DNA of 64,000 nt from Lachnospiraceae bacterium (lineage in GTDB: Bacteria; Bacillota; Clostridia; Lachnospirales; Lachnospiraceae): positions 1-64,000 of the forward strand of contig SVFQ01000006.1 of NCBI GenBank assembly GCA_015056765.1, in the 5' to 3' direction. The notes under the pieces were generated by a model, which worked only from the letters and a program-made list of their open reading frames with translations, did not search any database and was not told the DNA's origin. Numbering within the stretch: the stretch's first letter is position 1; each line of letters starts with the position of its first letter. Shown here in pieces: positions 43,677 to 46,351 of the stretch. Both the position numbers and the translations under genes were made by a program.

Positions 43677-44678
43677 ATGATCGATAATGAAACCATATTA
43701 GTAACAGGTGGTACAGGTACATTCGGTAAGGCATTTACCCGTTATGTCTTGGAGCACTACAATCCTAAGAAAGTCATCATCTACAGCCGTGACGAATTCA
43801 AACAGTTCATTATGGCCAATGAGATGAAAGAATATGCAGACAAGCTTCGTTTCTTCATCGGTGATGTAAGAGATAAAGAACGCTTGAAAAGAGCTTTTGA
43901 AGGCGTAGATTATGTGGTACATGCAGCAGCTATGAAACAAGTTCCTGCTTGCGAGTACAACCCAAATGAAGCAATCAAGACCAATATCCACGGCGCACAG
44001 AATGTCATCGATGCAGCGCTGGATGCGAATGTAAAGAAAGTCGTAGCGCTTTCTACAGATAAAGCAGTTAACCCTGTAAACTTATACGGTGGTACCAAGC
44101 TGGTTAGTGATAAGCTTTTCATCGCTGCAAATGCTTATGTAGGCGACAAGCAGACCAACTTCTCCATTGTTAGATATGGTAATGTAGCAGGAAGCCGTGG
44201 TAGTGTTATTCCATTTTTCCAGAACATCATCAATCAGGGTAAGACAGAACTGCCTATTACAGACTATCGTATGACTCGTTTCTGGATCAGTATTACAGAA
44301 GGTGTAGAGCTGGTAATCAAAGCATTAAAAGAAGCAACCGGTGGTGAGACTTTCATCTCTAAGATTCCTTCTTTCAAGATTACTGATTTGGCACAGGCTA
44401 TGCAGCCTGGTTGCACTATGCCTGAAGTAGGTATCCGTGAAGGTGAGAAACTGCATGAAATCATGGTTACTGTAGAGGATGCACCTTTTACCTATGAGTA
44501 TGAGAAGCACTTCATCGTGTTCCCTCAGATGGTATGGAACAATCGCCAGAAAGCCAATGCAAATGGACTTGGCAAGAAAGTGGAGGAGGGATTCTCCTAT
44601 ACTTCCGGTAATAATACATGGTGGCTCACTGTAGAGGAGATTCAGGAGCGCCTTAAAACACTTGAACTTGAACATTAA
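43677..44678 (+). CDS. pseB: UDP-N-acetylglucosamine 4,6-dehydratase (inverting), pseudaminic acid pathway
   Basis: 'ILVTGGTGTFGKAFTRYVLEHY', 'HAAAMKQVPACEYNPNEAIKTNIHGAQNVIDAA', 'LSTDKAVNPVNLYGGTKLVSDKLF', 'VRYGNVAGSRGSVIPFF'. Confidence 0.9.
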   Translation: MIDNETILVTGGTGTFGKAFTRYVLEHYNPKKVIIYSRDEFKQFIMANEMKEYADKLRFFIGDVRDKERLKRAFEGVDYVVHAAAMKQVPACEYNPNEAIKTNIHGAQNVIDAALDANVKKVVALSTDKAVNPVNLYGGTKLVSDKLFIAANAYVGDKQTNFSIVRYGNVAGSRGSVIPFFQNIINQGKTELPITDYRMTRFWISITEGVELVIKALKEATGGETFISKIPSFKITDLAQAMQPGCTMPEVGIREGEKLHEIMVTVEDAPFTYEYEKHFIVFPQMVWNNRQKANANGLGKKVEEGFSYTSGNNTWWLTVEEIQERLKTLELEH

Positions 44679-44686
44679 TTCCTAGG

Positions 44687-44722
44687 CTACCGCCGAGGCT
44701 TTTGCCTGGCGGTAGTTTTTTT
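44687..44722 (+). terminator. Intrinsic terminator of pseB, forming the left tip of the inverted-repeat element
   Basis: CTACCGCCgAGGC-tttt-GCCTgGCGGTAG followed by TTTTTTTT. Confidence 0.8.
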
Positions 44723-44993
44723 TATATTGCAGGGAGGGCGTGGACTTCGGAGCATTTTTTTGGGGGGCCGGGCGTATATAGTTTACAACGCAGGCCGCTC
44801 TCGCTACGGTTTTCACGTAGCGGTACTAAGTTCGCCTCGCGTGGCGGGCTCACTAAGTACCGACGTGAAAAAGTGCCTGCTTTTGTAAACTATATACGCC
44901 CGGCCCACAGCAAGAACTATAGATTGCTCCGAAGTCCACGCCCCATAATATAGATTAAAGAGACTACCGCCAGGTAAAAGCCTCAGCGGTGGT
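44687..44993. repeat. Long (about 307 bp) nested inverted-repeat element; MITE-like or large structured RNA
   Basis: Arms: 44687-44716 with 44964-44993 (30 bp, 3 mismatches); 44736-44754 with 44925-44943 (19/19); 44765-44788 with 44883-44906 (24/24); further inner pairing TTTTCACGT/ACGTGAAAA and GGTACT/AGTACC. Confidence 0.92.
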
Positions 44994-45085
44994 GGGAGAT
45001 GGAGTAATGTATAGCCTGCGGCGCTAGAAATAAGCAGTATTGTGGGATATACTAGGGATAAAGTGATAAAAGAGAAAGAGAATAA

Positions 45086-46351
45086 GTGCTAATGGCAAGT
45101 GGTAATAGAGAACGTGAAAAATTGAAAATACGCTGGACGCTGCATAGTTTAAGGTTTGCAGCTGTTTTGTTTATTGTATATACGATTTTTAGCTTTGAGC
45201 TTTTTTACAATCAGGCGCATCATGATAGTTTTGAGAAGTTTCAGTGGTTTATGTCGGATATTGATGCGTATTTGGAGGAGATGCAGGGGATCGATAGTGG
45301 GTTTGATTTTCCGTATCCTATTTTCTTCATGCTGGGTAGGTTCTTCATGTTGTTTACAGATGTGGGGACGGCAGCAGCCATTGCCACGGTGGTACTTAAT
45401 TCCATTAGTGTGTTTGCCTTGCTGTATTTCTTTGAAGTCATTACCAGGAGGTTCTGGGGTGAGGGATATGAGGAGCTTCGACAGCATCTGGTGGTAGCGC
45501 TTAGTTTTGGTATTTTGATGGTGTCCATGCTGTATGCGCCAAAGGGTGTGTATTTGCCGGGTATGGATCATAAGTATTTGGGTGTTTTTTCACCAAATCC
45601 TTGGCATAATCATACGTATTTGGCGACTCGTGGGTTTGCCATCGTAGCTTTCTTTTTGCTGGCAGAGATTTTGGAGTATTACGAGAAAAAGGTAGATGTG
45701 AAGCAGTATGTGCTGTTTTCTATATTCCTTTTGTTGACGACTTTGGCGAAACCTAGTTTTACTCTGGTGCTGGGCAGTACCATGGTGGTGCTGATGCTGG
45801 TAAGGCTCATTGCACATAAGGGGCAGACATGGAAGCAGACGCTGTATTTGGGGATTTGTTTTATTCCCACGATACTGGATTTGCTGTATCAGTTTGGTGG
45901 TGTATTTGGTAGTAGAGGGCATGCCGGTGAAGACGGTGGTATTGGGTTTGGCATCGGTGCTGCTTGGTCGCAGTATACTCATAATATTCCGTTAGCGATT
46001 ATGCTGGCTTTTGCATTCCCCGGGTTTGTACTGCTACTGAATCTGAAATATCTTCTGACTGATGTAAGATTTCGATTTAGCTGGGAATTAGCGCTTGCAT
46101 CCCTACTGGAGTTTTTATTCCTGTTTGAAAAGGGTGATCGTTTTGTTCACACGAATTTCTCTTGGGGCTACATGCATGGCATCTTCTTTGCCTTTGTGGG
46201 CAGTACTTTGCTACTTTTGGAGAATACCAGAAAGAAACGGCAGCCTATATGGGTTTTGACATTGGAGTGGACACTGTTTATCTGGCATGTGCTGGCGGGT
46301 TTCCGTTTCTTTGCGTATATGTTTAGTGGACAGTTCTATTATAGTTTTTAG
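45086..46351 (+). CDS. Polytopic membrane protein of unknown function (paralog 1 of pair)
   Basis: Multiple TM; 'SPNPWHNHTYLATRGFAI', 'TTLAKPSFTLVLG', 'TNFSWGYMHGIFFAF'. Confidence 0.65.
   Translation: MLMASGNREREKLKIRWTLHSLRFAAVLFIVYTIFSFELFYNQAHHDSFEKFQWFMSDIDAYLEEMQGIDSGFDFPYPIFFMLGRFFMLFTDVGTAAAIATVVLNSISVFALLYFFEVITRRFWGEGYEELRQHLVVALSFGILMVSMLYAPKGVYLPGMDHKYLGVFSPNPWHNHTYLATRGFAIVAFFLLAEILEYYEKKVDVKQYVLFSIFLLLTTLAKPSFTLVLGSTMVVLMLVRLIAHKGQTWKQTLYLGICFIPTILDLLYQFGGVFGSRGHAGEDGGIGFGIGAAWSQYTHNIPLAIMLAFAFPGFVLLLNLKYLLTDVRFRFSWELALASLLEFLFLFEKGDRFVHTNFSWGYMHGIFFAFVGSTLLLLENTRKKRQPIWVLTLEWTLFIWHVLAGFRFFAYMFSGQFYYSF

Follow-up and report, generated by a model that had tools for sequence, protein, structure and literature searches.

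In the window, i.e., the whole 64-kb stretch of DNA that was analyzed, a gene for a polysaccharide biosynthesis protein is followed on the same strand by a gene for a 421-aa protein without a Pfam match. The gap of ~400 bp between both genes holds a long palindrome that is composed of nested inverted arms around a conserved folded tip. The features are as follows:

43677..44678, plus strand: upstream gene, polysaccharide biosynthesis protein (Polysacc_synt_2; Pfam PF02719, E 1e-103)
44683..44997, no strand assigned: whole palindromic element, one giant hairpin (from the fold of 44680-45000 and the insertion relative to five relatives)
44689..44725 (plus) and 44954..44990 (minus): outer arm pair, 37 nt, 86% complementary
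44954..44990: right outer arm, an inverted copy of the left one with loop AAAA in place of TTTT; not terminator-like
44736..44754 (plus) and 44925..44943 (minus): middle arm, perfect 19-nt inverted repeat (19/19)
44765..44788 (plus) and 44883..44906 (minus): inner arm, perfect 24-nt inverted repeat (24/24)
44791..44879, plus strand: conserved folded tip (core) common to the whole family (covariance model R1, 73.7 bits, E 6e-17; covariation across 33 genomes)
44797..44804, plus strand: mini-hairpin GC-TCTC-GC in the 5' bulge of the tip (both pairs vary on both sides in the alignment)
44819..44821, plus strand: unpaired AGC opposite the lone unpaired purine, G44862 (41-element alignment)
45086..46351, plus strand: downstream gene, 421-aa protein, no Pfam match (its ortholog directly follows the upstream gene in five relatives)

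The stretch 44680-45000 (321 bases), in which the predicted RNA hairpin covers 44680-44997, has an RNA minimum free energy of -202.3 kcal/mol compared to -105.7 kcal/mol for shuffled sequences (z -17.8), and a fold with DNA parameters gives z -19.2, which bears out the claim of an initial annotation of this DNA that the element folds end to end into one giant hairpin. The perfect 24/24 and 19/19 arms and the outer pair are present as described there, with the outer pair measuring 37 nt at 86% complementarity, and the apical sequence that was quoted (44824-44862) is correct. The palindrome is the sole case of perfect inverted arms of at least 17 nt (within 450 bp) in the window, and no perfect arms of at least 15 nt were found in Markov-shuffled windows. 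Terminators had been claimed at both outer tips, but only the left tip is terminator-like. Here, a hairpin (44686-44715, -23.7 kcal/mol) is followed by T8 (44716-44723) inside the left outer arm, whereas on the minus strand the right tip forms a weak hairpin (-12.8 kcal/mol) followed by TCTCTTTAA instead of a T-run.

In five relatives (L006, L008, L009, L010, and L046) the orthologs of both flanking genes are only a few bases apart, with protein identities of 84-86% for the ortholog of the upstream gene and 46-49% for that of the downstream gene. The proposed comparison with the empty site in close relatives thus yielded five relatives in which the flanking genes abut, and the palindrome, including its terminator-like arm, was most likely added in the lineage of the window. 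A native terminator of the upstream gene is ruled out by the same five relatives, which have almost no intergenic space at this place. A further relative (L005) has a gap there that holds its own unrelated hairpin. Two relatives carry an element immediately upstream of the ortholog of the same polysaccharide gene (L013:2761-2847 and L059:2764-2876). No target-site duplication was seen at the window palindrome, in agreement with the initial annotation.

The conserved tip and its family

A blastn search in the genome of the window (G000) retrieved the window copy alone, apart from ~35 bp of its tip, and the closest matches of the tip (L003, L084, and L086) sit within other long hairpins with unrelated arms. 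The whole-element BLASTN that the initial annotation suggested therefore shows a single-copy palindrome of which only the tip recurs, and such a search would miss the family because only the tip is common to the copies. A covariance model from homologs, its second suggestion, was built on the tip (R1) and has matches in 122 of 299 Lachnospiraceae genomes and in about two fifths of the genera tested. This survey did not require the exact motif; 13 candidates were scored per genome, so that a count of 13 means at least 13.

From the foot inwards, the tip starts with a basal stem and a 5' bulge that contains a two-pair mini-hairpin. A variable stem then leads to an asymmetric loop, in which AGC faces a purine, and to the stem GGTACT/AGTRCC, which an A.A mismatch separates from a variable hairpin at the apex. 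In an alignment of 41 elements from 33 genomes, standard pairs occupy 94.3% of the cells, both partners vary in 20 of the 24 pairs, and the covariation score amounts to 0.559, with at most 0.151 for slid partners. The unpaired bases are near-invariant across the 41 elements. The loop of the mini-hairpin reads T-Y-N-C with an invariant T and C, and the unpaired AGC is conserved in 41/41 (A), 36/41 (G), and 39/41 (C) elements, opposite a purine in 41/41. The alignment was fitted to the model, and the conservation of the motif is somewhat inflated because most seed copies were chosen by exact motif. Near-invariant unpaired bases are beyond the reach of processes that match one arm to the other, and recognition is thus their simplest explanation. 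Two T.G wobble positions are found on the modeled strand only, which points to this strand as the folding one; after dropping these two columns, the strand asymmetry is small (19 vs. 11). The covariation of the tip is expected of a structured RNA, but also of a folded single-stranded DNA.

The family reaches high copy numbers. The motif CGYAGCGGTACTA has 202 exact copies in G018, a genome of the same bacterial family, vs. 0 for a reversed control pattern. Model matches amount to 37 in G204, 43 in G206, 42 in G122, and 34 in G073, and 16 copies are present in G112. The assembly of G018 comprises 410 contigs, many of which have a copy of the motif right at their start (C11:1, C12:7, C49:7, C62:9, C83:8, C95:1, and C100:9); the repeat thus probably breaks short-read assemblies. 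In the genome of the window, a convergent pair with weaker ends (55 and 52 bits), 212 bp apart, lies at C19 (L189:4352-4761), and a solitary copy at C18:5903-6024. Two direct tandem arrays were also observed, one with four near-identical copies at a period of 164 bp and without payload (L171:7142-7720, corresponding to G136:C59:125141-125719) and one with two copies (L170:10736-10959).

In a sample of the phylum, matches occur only in Lachnospiraceae and in one genome of another class (G689). The eight weaker matches of the latter (L304 and L309; 45-53 bits) may stem from horizontal transfer or belong to a more distant family branch. A search of phages and plasmids found no element, and one match in a viral contig, which lacks the fold, was judged to be chance. 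Rfam gives no match for the window at the gathering threshold, and at E <= 1 it covers no element in 12 related loci, so the family is apparently undescribed in Rfam and in the literature found.

Pairs, arms and in-place inversion

In several genomes, copies that lie close together mostly face each other. Among neighbors less than 1.5 kb apart in G018, 24/26 are convergent and none is divergent (p 7e-13 against 25%), and the same holds for 21/23 close neighbors in six other genomes (p 3e-11). Whole units of ~575-620 bp, composed of both ends and a spacer, are homologous at more than 10 loci of G073, in either orientation. In G112, G122, and G204 most ends are solitary, as is the window copy: with filters off, no partner end was found for it within the window, nor were weak partner ends found beside solitary copies. 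Some pairs in G018 enclose one gene, encoding acetyltransferases, Sir2, AsnA, a WYL regulator, a flavin reductase or proteins without a Pfam match, and these one-gene pairs are possible mobile gene cassettes. At L120, L125, L128, L132, L134, L137, and L138 of this genome, each convergent pair encloses exactly one gene of unrelated function.

The copies are intergenic and are flanked by ordinary genes, such as ArgJ with an amino-acid kinase, MnmE, SpoIVA, and pyruvate oxidoreductase. All orientations relative to genes occur in G018 without preference, and no conserved gene neighbor was found among the loci examined. A cis-regulatory RNA was rejected on account of this lack of orientation and gene preference. 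In G009, a T-box leader and a sub-threshold match to the Clostridiales-1 RNA (40.9 bits, gathering 48) adjoin an element (L091:876-1284).

In the genus of G112, seven species bear the element and two are free of it. Searches with joined flanks in sister species revealed clean empty sites (L225 in G326 and L254 in G325) as well as half-deleted elements. The empty state at L254 probably represents a loss, because G112 keeps a remnant with the same arm. Some absences are thus losses, and the chief arguments for mobility are copy number and loci that are not shared. The empty site at L225 contains neither arm, which rules out that the arms there are inverted duplications of the target. Target-site duplication would show as an excess of flank words in common, but none was found in the G018 units, the copies of the G112 group or the G073 ends; in old copies such a duplication may have been lost over time.

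The arms span 20-100 nt across copies, their foot is variable, and most copies seen have no T-run there. Among 39 copies of three sister species (G112, G325, and G326), the identity between copies is 94.7% for the core, 70% for the adjoining 30-nt arms, and 60% for the outer arms, and the arms are inherited with the locus. The two arms of one copy match each other better than arms of different copies do (0.83 vs. 0.67 for the adjoining arms; 0.79 vs. 0.58 for the outer arms). In the arms, G.T and A.C mismatches occur at about the same frequency (24 vs. 27 across genera, 59 vs. 52 in a larger set, and 17 vs. 34 in the G112 group), which gives no hint that an RNA stem is selected for on one of the strands.

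Six of the ~14 loci shared among the three sister species are inverted in place relative to their flanks (L235/L260; L234/L248; L244 vs. L236 and L256b; L251 vs. L264 and L247; L239/L257; L256 vs. L229 and L240). At L235/L260, as judged by eye, the core has taken most of the arms along in its turn. Orthologs differ in a five-base variant of the core (GACGTTGTCATA / GACGCCCACATA) that recurs at many loci, a pattern suggestive of conversion among copies. Short inverted repeats are known to undergo template switching, which homogenizes their arms and inverts the spacer (PMC8604942). To judge from their pattern, both the matching of the arms and the flipping fit template switching during replication.

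Interpretation and rival explanations

We propose that the window palindrome is, with good probability, one end of a small, non-coding, REPIN/MITE-like non-autonomous mobile element, present here as a solitary and overgrown copy. The full element would consist of two hairpin ends that face each other across a spacer. An enzyme supplied in trans would recognize the tip as a folded single strand, namely the modeled one, and would copy or move the unit, as REPs are thought to be moved by their transposase. Template switching of the DNA polymerase between the arms during replication would account for the matching and growth of the arms and for the inversions, while solitary copies, including that of the window, would be decayed or half units. 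The insertion in the window parts two genes that adjoin each other in relatives. It also brings in a predicted terminator-like hairpin and thus probably weakens read-through into the second gene.

The initial annotation had left a choice between a MITE-like or REP-like mobile element, a bidirectional terminator or insulator, and a structured RNA. The first option is the best of the three, being backed by a repeat family, covarying homologs, empty sites and presence/absence differences between sister species; the annotation had held that a lack of covarying homologs and of empty sites would count against a mobile element or structured RNA, and both were found. No autonomous copy was met among the loci read, and the sequence analysis found no transposition event or copying enzyme. 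It is possible, though we advance it tentatively and consider it rather unlikely, that the family is a new class of bacterial mobile element. Its folded ends of ~90 nt would be recognized as single-stranded hairpins by an enzyme unlike the REP transposase, sometimes with one passenger gene between them, and its arms would be remade locally by template switching, so that each insertion acquires its own arms and can flip.

The main rival, to which we give a clearly smaller chance, takes the tip as a structured non-coding RNA (a protein-binding RNA or a processing signal) with many paralogs, and the arms as a stem selected in the RNA. The strong covariation across genera, the near-invariant loop bases and the conservation of two T.G wobble positions on a single strand all agree with such an RNA, but its orientation to genes is unbiased in G018, frequent in-place inversion (six of ~14 shared loci) turns it around between sister species, G.T mismatches in the arms are no more favored than A.C, no gene neighbor is conserved, and 177 of the 299 genomes of the bacterial family lack the element at the threshold used. 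It is very improbable that the element is a transcription terminator or insulator kept between operons for that role. The left outer tip of the window copy with its T8 would suit this function, as would the intergenic position of the copies and the parting of two genes that adjoin in relatives; yet the right tip is not terminator-like, a T-run is missing from the foot of most copies, termination has no need of the conserved loop bases, and position and presence vary among sister species. A general role as a bidirectional terminator is not supported, given one terminator-like tip and no orientation preference in the family. An invertible switch, whose core would be flipped by a dedicated site-specific recombinase for the control of neighboring genes, would explain the six inverted loci but is the least credible, as arms that differ at every locus leave no common recombination site, inversion between short inverted repeats is known to proceed without a recombinase (PMC8604942), and no promoter-like match lies inside the window element, the sole one in 44500-45200 being outside (45025-45053).

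About 40% of the sampled Lachnospiraceae genera carry the proposed mobile element, some of them in tens to ~200 copies. The conserved tip provides a concrete handle for finding its putative enzyme. The data also constitute a natural comparative record of arm homogenization and in-place inversion in bacteria.

Comparison with known systems

Integron attC sites are arranged in tandem, and an identity with them was considered and set aside for this reason. Mobile insertion cassettes are non-autonomous units with passenger genes, known from IS231 and similar elements. The G018 pairs that enclose a single gene of unrelated function resemble them, but within the tests made their ends do not qualify as IS ends.

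REPs measure 20-40 bp and bear a GTAG or CGTC tag at one end, and REPINs are inverted REP doublets with a RAYT transposase (PMC3116915, PMC3733652). The present family shares with them that it is made up of non-coding, intergenic, high-copy palindromes without coding capacity (up to 202 motif copies here). As in REPINs, inverted doublets are the apparent mobile unit (convergent in 24/26 and 21/23 cases) and singlets are likely remnants. In contrast to a REP, the end has a structured tip of ~90 nt atop long arms whose sequence varies, and its foot is not conserved. The RAYT-containing transposase family, moreover, has no association with these elements: Y1 transposases (Pfam PF01797, including RAYT) occur in 66/122 genomes with the element and in 104/177 without it (p 0.48), and none was found in G112, with its 16 copies, or in the genome of the window. 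REP/RAYT mobilization was rejected for this lack of co-occurrence. The family is thus REPIN-like in distribution and pairing but is not classed as REPIN, since the palindrome type and the RAYT association fail.

MITEs (PMC10969869) are likewise small, non-coding, dispersed and presumably mobilized in trans, and the G073 units of ~600 bp with inverted ends at many loci are comparable to them, the window copy corresponding to a single end. The differences are that no target-site duplication and, among the loci read, no parent transposon was found, and that the ends are folded modules instead of short plain terminal repeats. Palindromic candidate structured RNAs of the human microbiome (PMC8040213) are similar in being intergenic and present on both strands; the examples in the main text of that study come from Bacteroidetes, and an unnamed entry of its supplement could be this family. 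Finally, the inversion of spacers and homogenization of arms described for short inverted repeats (PMC8604942) are mirrored here by arms that co-evolve within one copy around a center that flips. That case concerned yeast genes and spacers of a few bases, whereas the flipped part in these bacteria comprises ~90 nt or more.
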